DNA of 45,313 nucleotides from Acidobacteriota bacterium (lineage in GTDB: Bacteria; Acidobacteriota; Blastocatellia; Pyrinomonadales; Pyrinomonadaceae), in assembly GCA_003222895.1 (NCBI GenBank), contig QHXI01000089.1, positions 1-45,313 on the forward strand, written 5' to 3'. Shown here in pieces: positions 19,784-41,165 of this stretch. Every line of letters begins with the position of its first letter. Position 1 is the stretch's first letter. The position numbers and the translations under genes are program-made. The notes under the pieces were generated by a model. The model saw only the letters and a list, made by a program, of their open reading frames with translations. It had not been told where the DNA came from and did no database searches.

Positions 19784-19990
19784 CCTCGTGCCGTAGGCAC
19801 GAAATATTTATAGAACCAGGTTAGTTAGAAGATTTTTCCGATTGAGCGAGACGGTCTGATGTCTCGCTCAAATGTGGAGACGGGGATTGGCCGTCTTCTG
19901 ACGCGTAGCGTCCGTATGACTTTAGCCGTGGCTTTCAAGCCACGGTTTCCAGATGGGTGTTGATTTCGTCGCGTTAGCGACGAGTGAAAC
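19784..19990. repeat. Palindrome cluster containing copy B of the dispersed element
   Basis: Copy B has cgtgccgtaggcacg (19787-19801), then gaaatatttatagaacc, and a hairpin ttgagcgagac/gtctcgctcaa (19842-19852 with 19861-19871); the distal arm seen in copy A is missing. Next come ccgtggctttcaagccacgg (19926-19945) and tcgtcgcgttagcgacga (19967-19984), two other palindrome types. No gene is supported in 19764-20035. Confidence 0.75.
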
Positions 19991-29200: not shown

Positions 29201-29410
29201 GCACGCACTTGGCAGCCCATGTCTCCGCCGCGTAGCGGCGCGTTGAATTTAGCCGTGGGTTTCAACCCACGGTCGAGACGTCGCATTAGCATGCGCGTCG
29301 CGTAGCGACGGATGAACGAGAGATTCAATTGTCGCTACGCGACATTGTTTGATTCCCGAATCGATCCGTGGGCTGAAGCCCACGGCTAAACTCATTTCAT
29401 CGCTACACGA
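29190..29410. repeat. Cluster of REP-type hairpins between two RND pump genes
   Basis: At least six perfect or near-perfect hairpins: cgtgcgtaagcacg (29190-29203, holding the upstream stop codon), cgccgcgtagcggcg (29226-29240), ccgtgggtttcaacccacgg (29253-29272), cgtcgcgtagcgacg (29296-29310), gtcgctacgcgac (29331-29343) and ccgtgggctgaagcccacgg (29366-29385). Loops are GTAA, GTAG, TCAA or GAAG. The third and last belong to the same type as 19926-19945. Confidence 0.85.
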
Positions 29411-29428
29411 TGAAGATACGCTCTCGAA

Positions 29429-32400
29429 ATGGGTATGCCCGAACGATCCAAAGCCAAACCCAAACATCGCCGCGGCATCTCTGAGCTGTTCATTCACCGG
29501 CCGATCACCACGATTCTGGTGATGGTTGGCTTTGTCCTGTTCGGCCTCATCGGATATTCAGCGCTGCCGGTCAGCGATCTTCCCACCGTCGATTACCCGA
29601 CGATCAACGTCAACGCGAGTTTGCCTGGCGCGAATCCCGAAACGATGGCCGCCTCGGTCGCGACGCCGCTCGAAAGACAATTCTCGGGTATTGCGGGCAT
29701 CGATTCGATCAACTCGTCGAACTCGCAAGGCTCAACGTCGATCACGCTGCAATTCAATCTGAGCCGCAACATCGATGCGGCGGCGCAGGATGTTCAGACT
29801 GCGATCTCCGCCGCGCTGCCGCAGCTTCCGCCGGGCATGCCGAATCCGCCCAGCCTGCGCAAATCAAATCCGTCAGACAGCCCGATTCTTTTCTTCGCGT
29901 TGAATTCAGACGTGCTGTCGCTGCCGCAAATTGATGAATACGCCGAGACCTTGATCGCGCAACGTATCTCTATGGTTGACGGCGTGTCGCAGGTGCAGGT
30001 TTACGGCGCGATGAAGTACGCGGTGCGCGCCCAGATGGACCCGAATGCGCTCGCCGACCGCGGCATTGGAGTTGATGACATTGACGCGGCGATTCGCAAC
30101 GCGAATCCAAACACGCCGACCGGAACGCTGTACGGAAAATTCTCGAACATGACGGTGCAGACGAACGTGCAGCTCGACAATGCCTTGCAATTTCGCACCT
30201 TGATCGTCGCCTATCGCAACGGCGCACCGGTGCGGCTCGAAGAAGTTGCGAACGTTGTGGACAGTGTCGAAAACAACAAAGTCGCGAGCTGGTTCAACGG
30301 ACGGCGCAGCGTCACGATGGCCGTCCAGCGTCAGCCCGGCACGAATACCGTTGCGGTAGTCGATGCGATCAAAGCGCTGATTCCGCAGTTCAAGCAGCAA
30401 CTGCCTGCATCAGTCAATCTGGACATTCTGAACGATCGTTCGATCTCGATCCGGCAGTCAGTCAATGATGTGCAGTTTTCACTGTTGCTGGCGATGGGTC
30501 TGGTCGTGATGGTGATCTTTCTTTTCCTGCGGAACGTGCGCGCCACGATCATTCCGACACTCGCGCTGCCCACTTCGATCATCGGCACGTTCGCGGCGAT
30601 GTATCTTTTGAACTTTAGTCTCGACAACCTGTCGCTGATGGCGCTGACGCTTTCGGTCGGATTCGTCGTCGATGACGCGGTCGTGATGCTCGAGAACATT
30701 GTGCGCCGCATCGAGCTTGGCGAGGGCGTAATGGAGGCGGCGCTGAGCGGCTCACGCGAAATCGGATTCACGATCGTGTCGATGACAGTCTCACTGGTCG
30801 CCGTCTTTATTCCTGTTTTGTTCATGGGCGGAATTTTAGGCCGGCTGTTTCGCGAGTTCGCAATCACGATCAGCGTGGCGATTTTAGTTTCCGGCTTGGT
30901 CTCGCTGACGCTCACGCCGATGCTCGCAAGCAGGCTCTTGAAAGCTTCAGCCATTCGCGCCAGCGCGTTGCATGAAGACGCGGCCCACGCGCCGCGACGC
31001 GGCTGGTGGGGATTCACCGAAGGCATCTACAAGCGCGTGCTGCAATTTTATGAGTGGACGCTGCAAAAGGTTCTGCTGCATCCGCTTTTCACGATCACGA
31101 TCAGTCTGATTCTCGCGGTCTTCACGTTTTATCTCTTCGGCGTCGTGCCGAAAGGTTTTATTCCGAGCGGCGACACAGGGTTGTTGTTGGGCAGCACGGA
31201 AGGCGCGCAAGGCATTTCGCTCGATGACATGATTAAACATTCGAACGTGATTACCGACATCATTAAGAAGGATCCAAACGTGCAGTCGTACGCATCGACC
31301 GTCGGCGCCGGCGGTCGCAATAGTGGCGGCAACAGCGGCACGATCTTTATCGGATTGAAGCCCTTGAATCAGCGGGTCAGTGCCGATGACGTGATCGAGG
31401 GATTGCGCCCGAAGCTTTCGCGCGAGCCCGGCCTGCGGGTGATTCTCCAAAACCCGCCGAGCCTGAATATTGGCGGAGGATTTGGCCGCAGTACTTACCA
31501 AGTGACCATTCAGGCATCGAGTAACGCCGAACTGATTGACAACGCGCCCGTCCTCGAAAGGAAGATGCGCGAGATGCCGCTGCTTCAGGACGTCAACAGC
31601 AACCTGCAAGTCAACACGCCGCAGATTAACGTCGAAATCGATCGCAAACAAGCAGCCGCGCATAACGTGACCATCGCACAGATTCAGACGGCGCTGGGCG
31701 ACGCGTTTGGGTCGCGACAAGTTTCGACAATCTACATGCCGGCAAACGAGTATCAGGTGATCCTCGAAGCCAAGCCGGAATTTCAAAGCGATCCGACGGC
31801 GCTTGGCAGGCTGTACATTCATGCGTCTAACGGCGCGTTGGTTCCCCTGAGCGCGGTCGCTAGTTTCACGCGCAGCGTTGGCCCAGCCCAGGTGAATCAC
31901 TTTGGCGAGATGCCCGCGACGACGATCTCTTTCAACCTAAAACCGGGCGTGTCGCTCAGTCAGGCTACGACGCAAATTCAACAAGTCGCGAAACAAAACT
32001 TGCCCGCAACCATCACCACAACCTTTCAGGGATCGGCGCAAGTATTTCAATCATCGCTGCAGAATTTGACTTTGTTATTGCTGGTTGCGGTGCTCGTGAT
32101 TTACCTCGTGCTGGGAATTTTGTACGAGAGCTTCATTCATCCGCTCACGATTCTTTCGGGATTGCCGTCGGCGGGATTAGGCGCGCTGCTGACTCTGATG
32201 ATCTTTCATCGCGAGCTCGACATCTACGCGTTCGTCGGCCTCATCATGCTGATCGGCATCGTGAAGAAGAACGCGATCATGATGATCGACTTTGCGCTCG
32301 ACAAGCAGCGAAGAGAAGGCGAGGCGCCGCGCCAGGCAATTTACGATGCCTGCGTAATTCGCTTCCGCCCAATCATGATGACGACCATGTCGGCTTTGAT

Positions 32401-32617
32401 GGGAACCTTGCCAATCGCTCTGGGTTGGGGCGCCGGCGCTTCGGCTCGTCGAGGTTTGGGATTAGCAGTCGTCGGCGGATTAATTGTCTCGCAGGTGTTG
32501 ACCTTGTACTTGACGCCGGTTGTGTATTTGTATTTCGAGCGGTTTCAGGAATGGGTGCGTGGAGCGAAGAGTTCACCAGCGACCACGAGCGTTACGCCGC
32601 TGCACAACTCGCGATAG
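29429..32617 (+). CDS. mdtC: RND efflux pump inner-membrane subunit, MdtC-like
   Basis: 1062 residues from ATG 29429 (ATG 29435 also possible). It is clearly paralogous to the upstream pump: [54 protein letters not shown] and [20 protein letters not shown]. It lacks the long Ser/Thr/Gln-rich insert of its neighbour. A hydrophilic N-terminal extension of about 15 residues (GMPERSKAKPKHRRG) precedes the first helix. Two pumps behind one adaptor match the MdtABC layout, where MdtB and MdtC form a mixed trimer. In this case a 228-bp hairpin-rich gap separates them, so stoichiometry could be set by mRNA stability or partial termination. Confidence 0.93.
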   Translation: MGMPERSKAKPKHRRGISELFIHRPITTILVMVGFVLFGLIGYSALPVSDLPTVDYPTINVNASLPGANPETMAASVATPLERQFSGIAGIDSINSSNSQGSTSITLQFNLSRNIDAAAQDVQTAISAALPQLPPGMPNPPSLRKSNPSDSPILFFALNSDVLSLPQIDEYAETLIAQRISMVDGVSQVQVYGAMKYAVRAQMDPNALADRGIGVDDIDAAIRNANPNTPTGTLYGKFSNMTVQTNVQLDNALQFRTLIVAYRNGAPVRLEEVANVVDSVENNKVASWFNGRRSVTMAVQRQPGTNTVAVVDAIKALIPQFKQQLPASVNLDILNDRSISIRQSVNDVQFSLLLAMGLVVMVIFLFLRNVRATIIPTLALPTSIIGTFAAMYLLNFSLDNLSLMALTLSVGFVVDDAVVMLENIVRRIELGEGVMEAALSGSREIGFTIVSMTVSLVAVFIPVLFMGGILGRLFREFAITISVAILVSGLVSLTLTPMLASRLLKASAIRASALHEDAAHAPRRGWWGFTEGIYKRVLQFYEWTLQKVLLHPLFTITISLILAVFTFYLFGVVPKGFIPSGDTGLLLGSTEGAQGISLDDMIKHSNVITDIIKKDPNVQSYASTVGAGGRNSGGNSGTIFIGLKPLNQRVSADDVIEGLRPKLSREPGLRVILQNPPSLNIGGGFGRSTYQVTIQASSNAELIDNAPVLERKMREMPLLQDVNSNLQVNTPQINVEIDRKQAAAHNVTIAQIQTALGDAFGSRQVSTIYMPANEYQVILEAKPEFQSDPTALGRLYIHASNGALVPLSAVASFTRSVGPAQVNHFGEMPATTISFNLKPGVSLSQATTQIQQVAKQNLPATITTTFQGSAQVFQSSLQNLTLLLLVAVLVIYLVLGILYESFIHPLTILSGLPSAGLGALLTLMIFHRELDIYAFVGLIMLIGIVKKNAIMMIDFALDKQRREGEAPRQAIYDACVIRFRPIMMTTMSALMGTLPIALGWGAGASARRGLGLAVVGGLIVSQVLTLYLTPVVYLYFERFQEWVRGAKSSPATTSVTPLHNSR

Positions 32618-32631
32618 TTAGCGCGGGGGAA

Positions 32632-32760
32632 TAGCCCGACCGTGAGGGAGGGCTTTTCTTTCAAAACCTGCGGAGCAGGTGACGGCGTAAAGCCTGGGGC
32701 GTAAGCCCCAGGACAACCAATCCAAAGAATCATCGAGCCCGCGGAGTGGGCGGCAGCCTG
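32632..32760. repeat. REP-type palindromes upstream of the transposase remnant
   Basis: Three units: agcccgaccgtgagggaggg (about 32633-32653), acctgcggagcaggt (32666-32680) and cctggggcgtaagccccagg (32693-32712). The last is the exact reverse complement of the unit at 33279-33298, on the other side of the transposase remnant; the identity extends five more bases (taaag) outside the stem. Confidence 0.85.
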
Positions 32761-32798
32761 CAAGAATCCTTACTCGACAAGCGTGATAACGTGATTCG

Positions 32799-33232
32799 AT
32801 GTCCGACTCCTACACCAATCTTCTCTATCACATCGTTTTTTCGACAAAGGATCGCCGTCCGTTAATCACGCATGAGTATGAAGTCAGACTCTATGATTAC
32901 ATCGGCGGCACTCTTCGCCGAACTGGCGGCATTTCGCTTGAACTCAACGGCACAGAAGATCACATTCACTTGTTGGCTAAGCTTCGGCCTGATCGGTCTC
33001 TCTCTGAAGTTCTACGAGACTTGAAAGCGAACGCGACAGGATGGATGCATGATGTTTTTCCTTCGCTCAAAGAGTCTTCCTGGCAGCGTTCACTGTCAGC
33101 CAATCAAATGTTGAGGAAGTTCGGCGATACATTGCGAGGCAGAAAGAACATCATGCGGTGGTTTCGTTTCGGGATGAGTTCATTCAATTCCTGAGAGCAA
33201 ACGGAATTGAATACGACGAGAGATTTATTTGA
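32799..33232 (+). pseudogene. REP-associated (IS200-like Y1) transposase, frameshifted before the catalytic Tyr
   Basis: ATG 32799 opens a typical RAYT/IS200-like protein: YTNLLYHIVFSTKDRRPLIT, the HUH motif in TEDHIHLLAKL and LKANATGWMHDVFPSLKES. After SSWQ (near 33082) the frame goes out of register and ends at 33194. The correct sequence continues one frame over as AFTVSQSNVEEVRRYIARQK to NGIEYDERFI and a stop at 33230-33232. The catalytic Tyr and metal-binding Gln (YIARQ) are in that second frame, so the product of the first frame is inactive. Relatives carry about four residues such as xGYx between WQ and the next segment, so a deletion of roughly 13 bases is likely. REP hairpins flank the gene on both sides. 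Confidence 0.85.
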
Positions 33233-33235
33233 TGA

Positions 33236-33298
33236 GCTGTCGCTCGCTTCGCGAGCTCGCTTTGTTTGTGGGCTTTTCCCTGGGGCTTACGCCCCAGG
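33236..33298. repeat. REP-type palindromes downstream of the transposase remnant
   Basis: A short palindrome, gctcgcttcgcgagc (33242-33256), is followed by cctggggcttacgccccagg (33279-33298). The latter is the exact reverse complement of the unit at 32693-32712. The two therefore form terminal inverted copies around the transposase remnant. Confidence 0.85.
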
Positions 33299-33322
33299 CT
33301 TTATGCTGTTCCGCTCCGCGGA

Positions 33323-33396
33323 TTAGAACAACTGGAACTTAATCGTCAGACACTGCTTCGGGTTCTGGCGGAAGTCGTAAGTCATCTTCACGCCCT
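33323..33396 (-). pseudogene. Diverged duplicate of the mlaD 3' end
   Basis: Read on the minus strand from 33385, this gives MTYDFRQNPKQCLTIKFQLF and a stop at 33323-33325. The true end of mlaD about 500 bp away encodes MIYDFRQNPKKYLTIKFQLF. The nucleotide match starts at the stop codon, runs for about 70 bp to near 33396 and has only a handful of differences. The copy is separated from mlaD by an antitoxin gene and palindromes. It may be a relic of a duplication or of rearrangement between mlaD-like genes. Confidence 0.8.
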
Positions 33397-33411: not shown

Positions 33412-33681
33412 TTATGCAGCCTTGTCGCCTGACAGTTTTTCTTTGAGCCAGGAGTTAGCGAGAGTGGCGAGTGAGACTCCTTGTCTCTCCGCCTGCTCTT
33501 CAAGGCGAACATAGACTTCAGGATCGAGCGTGATGCGATGCGGCGCTCGGATTTCAAATTCGACTTCGTGGGTCTGATCCCAATGATCAGCGAGGCTATG
33601 GCTGTCCCAGTATTCGCCAATCTCTTCTGGAGATCGGGCATTCGAAACACTGCTGAGCTGATCGCTATTATTTTCGCTCAT
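33412..33681 (-). CDS. CopG-family antitoxin-like protein without visible toxin
   Basis: 89 residues from ATG 33681 (MSENNSDQLSSVSNARSPEE). The landmarks EEIGEYWDSHSLADHWDQTH, VEFEIRAP, ITLDPEVYVRLEEQAERQG and LATLANSWLKEKL match the CopG antitoxin group (BrnA-like): an acidic toxin-binding N-terminus and a ribbon-helix-helix-like C-terminus. The DNA-binding part should repress its own promoter. No toxin gene is found next to it: one side holds the mlaD duplicate, the other a palindrome (cgcccgcttcgcgggct, 33688-33704) only six bases from the start codon. No Shine-Dalgarno is visible. It is probably an orphan antitoxin brought in by rearrangement. Confidence 0.8.
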   Translation of the reverse strand: MSENNSDQLSSVSNARSPEEIGEYWDSHSLADHWDQTHEVEFEIRAPHRITLDPEVYVRLEEQAERQGVSLATLANSWLKEKLSGDKAA

Positions 33682-33687
33682 GTCTGT

Positions 33688-33815
33688 CGCCCGCTTCGCG
33701 GGCTAAAATAAATGGGAGGTCGGTGATCCCAGCGCTGAAGCGCTGGGCTATTGTCAAACGTCCGCTATCGCGGACGATAACGTCACGCCCTCCCTGACGG
33801 TCGGGCTACTGCCCC
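33688..33815. repeat. Palindrome cluster between antitoxin gene and mlaD
   Basis: Four units: cgcccgcttcgcgggct (33688-33704), cccagcgctgaagcgctggg (33728-33747), cgtccgctatcgcggacg (33760-33777) and gccctccctgacggtcgggc (about 33787-33806). The last is the inverse of the unit near 32633-32653. They occupy nearly all of the gap before the mlaD stop codon. Confidence 0.8.
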
Positions 33816-33823
33816 TGGGCGCA

Positions 33824-34978
33824 CTAAAACAACTGGAACTTAATCGTCAGGTATTTCTTCGGGTTCTGGCGGAAGTCGTAAATCATCTTCACGCCTTCAG
33901 ACGACAAGTTGTTGACGTTGTTGTAGAGCGATTCGTCGGTGATCAGTTTGCCGAGCGTGCCTTCGCCGCGTTGCGCGTTCGCTACCACGTTATCAATTCG
34001 CGCGGCCGTCGTGTTGAAGCGAGCGATCGCTGTGCGCGCGTCGTTGTAGATCGCTTCATCTTTCACCAGCTTGCCCAGCGTGCCCTGGCCCGCATTAACT
34101 CCGGCAATAATCTGATCGATTTGATCCATTGAATGGTTCACGCGATCGGCGATGTGATTGATCTTGTTGTACATCTCATCGCTTTCGAGCAGCTTGCCCG
34201 CTGTGCCGCGCCCGGCTGCCAAATCAGCAGAGAGCTTTTTCAAATTTGCAGCGATGTCATTCGCGTTGTTGTAGAGCGCTTCGTCGTAGATGAACTTGCC
34301 GGCTGAACCCTTGCCGCTTTTGATTTGCGTGGCCAGCTCTTCCGCGTCGCGAATCGTCGCGTTCAGATTGTTGTAAAGCGATTCATCGTTGAAGAGGCGA
34401 CCGACGGTGCCTTTGCCCTCGCGCACGTTCTTGACCACCTCATTCAATTGATCGGAAAGCTTGCTTAACTTCTGGGCCAACTCTGTGCCGTTGGTTGCCA
34501 GGTCGGACATGGTGCTGCCGGCAGTCGAGGGCAGCAGAAAATTATCAGTCACGGGTTGGCCCAGAGGAGTGCCGGGCGTGATGTTCACGATCATTTCGCT
34601 GCCCAGAATGCTGGGCGCGGCTTGTTGCGCGGTCGAGTCGGTGCGAATGCGATCAGTGGCGGGAACGCCGTCGATTTTGCTTTCGATTGTCAGAAACGCT
34701 TCGATCTTCTGCGGGCTGGGACCGGTGCCGACCTCGGACGGGCTGAGCAGACGAATGCGATCGACTTTGCCGATGCGTACGCCCGCGAGGCGCACTTCTG
34801 ATCCTTCGCGCAAGCCGTTCGCATCGGCGAATCGCGCTCGCAGATGCAGGTGGCTCTTGAACGGATTGAGCTCGCCCGACGCGTTCAGGATCAACACCAA
34901 CAGTACCGCCAATGCAATAAAGACGAGTAAGCCGACGCGCAGCTCGCTCAGTCCGACGTTCCTGGTTGATTTTGGCAT
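33824..34978 (-). CDS. mlaD: MlaD/MCE-domain lipid transport protein with five C-terminal repeats
   Basis: 384 residues. One N-terminal membrane helix (VGLLVFIALAVLLVLILNAS) is followed by an MCE domain (about 45-140: LRARFADANGLREGSEVRLA, GVRIGKVDRI). MCE proteins form hexameric rings that carry phospholipids between inner and outer membranes. The rest is a tail with five repeats of the form GxGTxGKLxxDExxYNNxN, starting near residues 188, 222, 256, 298 and 338, separated by amphipathic helices. The tail is much longer than in E. coli MlaD and might form a helical tube or extended needle; that is inference. It is the last gene of a minus-strand mlaE-mlaF-mlaD operon. Confidence 0.93.
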   Translation of the reverse strand: MPKSTRNVGLSELRVGLLVFIALAVLLVLILNASGELNPFKSHLHLRARFADANGLREGSEVRLAGVRIGKVDRIRLLSPSEVGTGPSPQKIEAFLTIESKIDGVPATDRIRTDSTAQQAAPSILGSEMIVNITPGTPLGQPVTDNFLLPSTAGSTMSDLATNGTELAQKLSKLSDQLNEVVKNVREGKGTVGRLFNDESLYNNLNATIRDAEELATQIKSGKGSAGKFIYDEALYNNANDIAANLKKLSADLAAGRGTAGKLLESDEMYNKINHIADRVNHSMDQIDQIIAGVNAGQGTLGKLVKDEAIYNDARTAIARFNTTAARIDNVVANAQRGEGTLGKLITDESLYNNVNNLSSEGVKMIYDFRQNPKKYLTIKFQLF

Positions 34979-41044: not shown

Positions 41045-41165
41045 TGTCAAAAGCCCGACCGTTAGGGAGCGCAAGACTCGAGTCCTCCTAGCCCCAAGTA
41101 GCATCAGTAAGCTTAGGAATCATTGAGTGTGGCCGTTGCCTGGCTGGCGCGCGGGCTTCTGACAC
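41044..41165. repeat. Element with inverted termini GTGTCA...TGACAC, copy 1
   Basis: Its ends are gtgtcaaaagcccg (from 41044, four bases after the HD-GYP stop begins) and cgggcttctgacac (ending 41165). It is 122 bp long and includes the gcccgaccgttagggag palindrome half at its left side. Copy 2 follows 59 bp downstream. Confidence 0.7.

Follow-up and report, generated by a model that had tools for sequence, protein, structure and literature searches.

A decayed transposase gene lies between two inverted copies of a three-hairpin unit in the DNA analyzed here, a 45,313-nucleotide stretch (the window; contig C158 of an acidobacterial genome of 4.77 Mb in 167 contigs, probably from a soil bacterium), and this locus is probably REPtron-like, with a TnpA_Y1 gene of subclass 1.2 placed between units that would be the DNA substrate of its product. 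This reading is based on the anatomy of the units, covariation of their helices, the existence of gene-free convergent pairs, the co-occurrence of units and transposases, the way in which the AAG foot clusters in the transposase phylogeny, and the absence of three elements from congeners. The initial annotation described the locus as a former composite REP-RAYT element; the locus does hold a decayed transposase gene with hairpins inverted at its two ends, but the RAYT identity was not borne out.

The transposase copy in the window is broken (Table 1). Its open part matches Pfam Y1_Tnp (66.6 bits, positions 2-100 of the 121-position profile), passes the cut-off of NCBIfam transpos_IS200 (58.4 bits, cut-off 55) and contains the HUH motif, as DHIH, that had been noticed earlier; its closest named relatives are from Blastocatellia and Pyrinomonadaceae (Acidobacteriota). 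Alignment with an intact homologue on contig C125 shows that 13 nt are absent at about 33085/33086, so the segment with the catalytic tyrosine (...RRYIARQKEHH...) is shifted to another frame, in agreement with the frame change proposed by the initial annotation. This broken Y1 (HUH) transposase locus is flanked by an RND transporter-like ORF upstream and a ribbon-helix-helix-like ORF downstream. The two hairpins reported around the gene were placed correctly and are exact reverse complements of each other. What had been missed is that each forms the center of a unit of three hairpins, which extends the element to the outer limits of both units.

Table 1. Features of the window, with positions counted from its first nucleotide.
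Feature	Position	Strand	Basis or details
Weaker three-hairpin unit, single	19899-19986	+	R1 23.4 bits, E 0.0008; R2 E 3.4e-8; seed of neither model
Convergent pair without transposase	29226-29412		main stem CCGTGGG, foot TTTAG; units 29226-29315 (+) and 29326-29412 (-); R1 36.9 and 33.8 bits, neither an R1 seed
RND transporter-like ORF	29429-32617	+	named by eye from sequence
Whole window element	about 32666-33323		limits are both three-hairpin units
Upstream three-hairpin unit	32666-32756	+	sequence; 88.2 bits with covariance model R1, which has this unit among its 32 seeds; H1 32666-32680; foot TAAAG 32688-32692; H2 32693-32712; H3 32737-32751; tail 32752-32756
Transposase pseudogene, open 131-aa part	32799-33194	+	Y1_Tnp and transpos_IS200 matches
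HUH motif DHIH	32958-32969	+	inside the transposase ORF from 32799
Transposase remainder, other frame	33089-33232	+	translation and alignment with C125 homologue
Catalytic Tyr codon (YIARQKEHH)	33128-33130	+	in the remainder
Downstream three-hairpin unit, inverted	33237-33323	-	sequence; R1 74.4 bits (an R1 seed); H3 33242-33256; H2 33279-33298; foot 33299-33303; H1 33310-33322
Third three-hairpin unit, single	33684-33775	-	main stem CCCAGCGC, foot CAATAG; R1 68.5 bits (no R1 seed)
CopG/RHH-like ORF	33412-33681	-	below Pfam cut-offs
mlaD-like gene	33824-34978	-	3' end duplicated, 33321-33394 and 33823-33896
Different hairpin AGCCCGACCGTNAGGGAGGGC, three copies	32633-32653; 33787-33807; 41052-41072	+; -; +	

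The unit is ~90 nt long and consists of a small hairpin (H1), a linker of ~12 nt ending in AAG or TAG, the main hairpin (H2), a spacer of ~24 nt and another small hairpin (H3). One anatomy was seen on scanning the flanks of related transposases. Among the 63 full units that give its dimensions, 45 have an H1 of 15 nt, 34 a linker of 12 nt (AAG or TAG is its usual end), 33 an H2 of 20 nt (most of the rest have longer-loop forms), 51 a spacer of 21-25 nt and 51 an H3 of 15-16 nt, followed by a tail of which GACAG is an example. Judged by eye, the spacers keep their length and vary in sequence. In that scan a full unit was present on 63 of 102 flank sides, compared to 1 of 102 in first-order Markov resamplings, and a candidate of any kind on 88; because these 102 sides include duplicate loci and three loci that do not belong to subclass 1.2, a deduplicated count of 41 loci is used below. 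The architecture was not visible from a whole-window inverted-repeat finder alone, for which the best (longest) 25 of 98 pairs were considered.

The main-hairpin pattern, allowing up to two mismatches, gave 18 matches at 13 distinct places in the same genome (exact copies match on both strands), and the reversed pattern used as a control gave none. The 5' foot TAAAG is present at all 13 copies and always on the same side, so the hairpin has a direction. The genome also contains seven other Y1_Tnp matches, six of which are over the Pfam cut-off. Therefore, neither of the two outcomes that the initial annotation had named as speaking against its proposal, the lack of any other such gene and a hairpin no more frequent than chance, was found.

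What is conserved in these units is their structure. In an alignment of 32 units (A2), 97.3% of cells are paired, both sides have changed in 17 of the 20 pairs, and there are 109 compensatory cells, as opposed to a mean of 24.7 after shuffling and at most 22 in slid controls. An alignment of 22 TAG-type units from four phyla (A4) has 95.6% of cells paired, changes on both sides in 18 of 20 pairs and 99 compensatory cells (25.5 in shuffles, at most 21 in slid controls), with the innermost H3 pair failing in 12 of the 22 rows. Deriving the structures from the same sequences favors the percentage paired in both alignments but does not explain the compensatory changes.

Several lines of evidence tie the units to the transposase. 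The intact homologue (C125:31788-32132, 148 aa), with 80% identity to the window copy across 97 aa, has units of the window type on both sides in the same inverted arrangement; upstream of this gene there are tandem units whose starts are 72-73 nt apart. Among 41 distinct loci of related transposases that have both flanks present (four others with flanks too short were left out), a full unit in the expected orientation is found on at least one side in 32 and on both sides in 19, compared to 2 of 280 unselected tiles of the genome; 9 of the loci have no such unit within 300 nt, and units in the wrong orientation occur on 10 upstream and 6 downstream sides. Across 99 genomes of the family, 61 contain both transposase (E ≤ 1e-20) and units (E ≤ 1e-6, with the best 43 candidates or fewer scored per genome), 21 contain neither, 6 of the 67 with a transposase have no units at this threshold, and 11 of the 32 without a transposase match have units, two of them with 35 and 42 (Fisher p about 1e-8, with genomes treated as independent of kinship). 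On a tree of 41 transposases the AAG foot is clustered, requiring 4 changes compared to a shuffled mean of 14.1 (0 of 500 shuffles as low), and the TAG foot alone is not clearly so (8 changes versus 9.7; 47 of 500 as low), on labels of which at least two (L024, L043) look misparsed, six are 'mixed' and four are 'none'. A comparison of each upstream flank with its inverted downstream flank (score of at least 16 in 30 of 41 loci, versus 10 in direct orientation and 24 for the best of 15 swapped loci) carries no weight, because units resemble one another between loci. Chance was rejected as an explanation by the reversed-pattern, resampling, shuffle/slid and tile controls.

The units are also dispersed through the genome. 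Covariance model R1 detected at least 76 of them at E ≤ 0.01 when the best 150 of 1265 candidates were scored. Of 79 distinct units inspected (91 entries, less 12 that were overlapping loci or partial units), 48 form 24 convergent pairs, mostly of ~190-250 bp and without a transposase, which makes them REPIN- or MITE-like, a frequency that is not that of an unbiased sample since the inspected loci were chosen around matches; no unit was found in a 20-kb stretch (L124) not chosen in this way. The two units of a pair are 5-60 nt apart in 21 of the 24, and the 21 pairs for which the sequence was printed are 187-253 bp long. Pairs of the commonest type have, by eye, two distinct ends in 7 of 10 cases: a CGATT stem goes with a GTCCGC-type H3 at one end, and a CACTT or CAGTT stem with a GCCCG-type H3 at the other. 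No cognate transposase could be assigned to this unit type, which counts against the REPtron-like reading.

In congeners, the orthologous sites lack the window element and the two gene-free pairs that were compared. For the window site, four congener loci could be aligned, through both flanking genes or, in G002, through one of them, and none has an R1 match; in congener G059, 44 nt separate the RND block from the RHH-like ORF. For the gene-free pairs L106 and L102, five congeners were compared per pair and none has an R2 match at the orthologous site; the L102 site measures 34 nt in G059 versus 277 nt in this genome. L148 does contain a unit pair, which is situated outside the aligned flank. 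The congeners are too divergent for exact junctions to be defined, and site-by-site loss in them is a possible alternative to these absences.

Other repeats and genes around the element were also noted. In G059 the RHH-like ORF is followed by a gene that looks, by eye, like a toxin-type gene, where the genome studied here has the third unit of Table 1 instead. The whole window element lies between two copies of the AGCCCGACCGTNAGGGAGGGC hairpin that are inverted relative to each other; this hairpin has 89 matches in the genome (up to two mismatches; control 0), including several head-on pairs about 35 bp apart. The outer of the two copies of the mlaD-like 3' end adjoins the downstream unit. 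The initial annotation had suggested that a live relative elsewhere explains the palindromes of the window. The intact C125 relative is a candidate source in trans, but the window contains more than one palindrome family (three-hairpin units with three different main-hairpin stems, plus the unrelated AGCCCGACCGTNAGGGAGGGC hairpin), so a single live relative does not explain them all.

If the locus is REPtron-like as proposed, the transposase would bind H2 and its 5' foot (AAAG or NTAG) in single-stranded DNA, such as that at replication forks, and its HUH-tyrosine site would cut near H2 under guidance of the foot. Two-ended units of ~190-250 bp would spread in trans as convergent pairs, and the transposase gene itself would seldom move; we infer both cutting and mobility from the features described above. 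H1 and H3 probably delimit the mobilized unit and may also act as RNA hairpins at 3' ends, and the intact C125 copy could still act on units that have CCTGGGG stems.

The properties of the protein bear on an alternative that we regard as unlikely, in which the locus is an ordinary IS200/IS605 insertion sequence, autonomous and with subterminal hairpins, that moves as a whole and gives rise to gene-free pairs by internal deletion. The C125 homologue, like the window copy, passes the transpos_IS200 cut-off (75.3 bits), an AlphaFold2 model of it (pLDDT 86, 25 sequences) has the Y1 fold, and the nearest solved structures, by sequence as well as by fold, are transposases of this type (IS608 and ISDra2), with the REP transposase 4er8 at rank 30; moreover, gene-free pairs and gene-bearing loci share the same ends. 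However, the DHIH and WQ motifs, the Y---Q--HH form of the tyrosine motif (YIAKQKEHH in the C125 homologue) and the length of 148 aa fit subclass 1.2 of TnpA_Y1, and neither the near-identical copies nor the Y[IV]ENQ and W[TS] motifs of subclass 1.1 were found. In IS200/IS605 elements both end hairpins are on the same strand. Here, each end has three hairpins, there are more units than genes, and the units are inverted about the gene, whereas IS200/IS605 transposition is described as strand-specific (PMC8266576). In addition, Y1 copies in this genome are 28-52% identical, except for the window/C125 pair, as opposed to the average of 99.4% given for subclass 1.1 in Table 1 of PMC6006769. Few and divergent copies agree with subclass 1.2, but the 261 matches in 67 of the 99 family genomes (mean 3.9 per positive genome) exceed the copy number of 1.7 given for that subclass (PMC6006769), a point against this assignment.

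It is improbable that the units are transcription terminators or RNA-stability hairpins which are tied to the transposase only by their position at gene 3' ends. The units do tend to lie downstream of genes, since an ORF of at least 150 aa ends within -40 to 150 nt outside H1 in 39 of the 79 units (17 of 79 on the inner side), compared to 8.2% of 4000 random positions. But hairpins with this function require no further copy in inverted orientation and no fixed foot, and the inverted units on both sides of transposase loci, the co-occurrence of units and transposase in family genomes and the clustered AAG foot all argue against it. No Rfam family reached its gathering score within the window, and a known structured RNA was rejected as a candidate.

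A canonical class 2 RAYT with GTAG-foot REPs, as the initial annotation proposed, is very hard to sustain: REPtrons do have a small number of gene copies, palindromes inverted around a Y1 gene, and palindromes dispersed elsewhere (PMC6006769, PMC8266576), but the RAYT model (NCBIfam REP_Tyr_transpos, cut-off 80) gives 19.4 bits for the window copy and 17.9 bits for C125, the IS200/IS605 model being the better one, the tyrosine motif has the form Y---Q--HH and not NP, and in place of a single REP hairpin with a GT[AG]G foot there are three hairpins per unit and a TAAAG foot.

Other transposase loci differ in their ends. L004 (G000:C35) encodes a protein with Y---Q--HH but THLH instead of DHIH, and in its flanks (1204-1423 and 1998-2523) hairpins are repeated in tandem, 2.7 times with a period of 81 and 4.5 times with a period of 117; R1 matches neither array. 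L007 (G000:C71) is a class 2 RAYT by the NCBIfam model (109.5 bits, cut-off 80) with an inverted hairpin pair bearing GTAG feet in its flanks (1384-1404 and 1919-1939), a canonical REPtron within the same genome. The transposases of L001 (G000:C18) and L141 (a Bernardetia plasmid) group together in the tree and have in common a different kind of end, in which a small hairpin precedes ...ATGTTTATAG or ...ATATTTGTAG and there is no main hairpin.

Units like those in the window are not confined to Acidobacteriota, as R2 matches at E ≤ 1e-4 (best 150 candidates scored per large genome) occur in four of six genomes or plasmid records from outside this phylum. There are at least 14 in the genome of L067 (Planctomycetota), at least 3 in that of L071 (Desulfobacterales, Desulfobacterota) and 12 on a Persicobacter plasmid (Bacteroidota), all three of which contributed seeds to R2, and at least 59 in the genome of L069 (Verrucomicrobiota), which contributed none. 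No match was obtained at this threshold among the best 150 candidates of the L068 genome (Fimbriimonadaceae), yet there is a strong inverted match between the L068 flanks. The Bernardetia plasmid also gave none; its transposase locus has a two-hairpin form with a ATATTTGTAG tail and no H2, and its flank, used as a DNA query, matched only its own plasmid record.

A broader proposal, for and against which we see the case as evenly balanced, is that Y1 transposases of subclass 1.2 are domesticated drivers, in several phyla, of a distinct class of REPINs that are ~200 bp long and two-ended, have three-hairpin ends of fixed geometry, and are recognized by structure and a short foot instead of by stem sequence. 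Such recognition would allow stems to drift by compensatory change, so that many sub-families could exist in one genome. The units provide a likely substrate for a transposase subclass listed as REP 'no' and as not sharing IS properties (PMC6006769, 2018), they add a REP architecture that is outside the design of searches for single hairpins with a GTAG foot, and they place gene-free paired repeats in little-studied phyla. With intact transposases and defined candidate substrates available, the mechanism by which REPs spread can be tested directly in bacteria other than Proteobacteria.

We found this three-hairpin REP architecture described nowhere in the open-license literature; among the matches listed there, judged by title and the opening of the abstract, none deals with a unit of three hairpins or assigns a REP to subclass 1.2. 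The entry for subclass 1.2 in PMC6006769 agrees with the proteins analyzed here in the Y---Q--HH, DH[IV]H and WQ motifs, a length of about 148 aa and divergent copies within a genome; members are given there as generally without IS200-type terminal structures and mostly from Cyanobacteria and Bacteroidetes, whereas here inverted three-hairpin units are present at most loci, in Acidobacteriota and four other phyla. Class 3 of TnpA_Y1 is similar in its occurrence in Acidobacteria and Planctomycetes, and its atypical flanking structures, which are present in high copy, but was rejected on its motifs, since the listed NHVH, W[TA] and YV[VI][AENY]EQ, length of about 178 aa and CnGA foot (PMC6006769) contrast with DHIH, WQ, YIAKQKEHH, 148 aa and AAAG. 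IS200/IS605 elements of subclass 1.1 (IS608, ISDra2) share the Y1 fold, the catalytic motifs and terminal hairpins with this system, and differ in their near-identical copies, their single hairpin near each end and their Y[IV]ENQ motif. TIRtrons, with their TIRYT transposases (PMC3733652, 2013), likewise have a tyrosine transposase between inverted repeats in Acidobacteria, some of the repeats being self-complementary and some dispersed as dimers; their proteins are RAYT-like and mostly placed in subclass 2.1 by PMC6006769, a distinction that is drawn from these descriptions only. The closest parallel in arrangement is the REPtron (class 2 TnpA_REP/RAYT with its REPs, REPINs and BIMEs), for which single-strand cutting is also described (PMC8266576), and which has in common with the present system a Y1 gene between inverted palindromes, a short 5' foot, and palindromes dispersed elsewhere, often as inverted pairs between genes; the two systems differ in the class of transposase, in the foot, which here is AAAG or NTAG, and in the use of three hairpins of fixed geometry instead of one.
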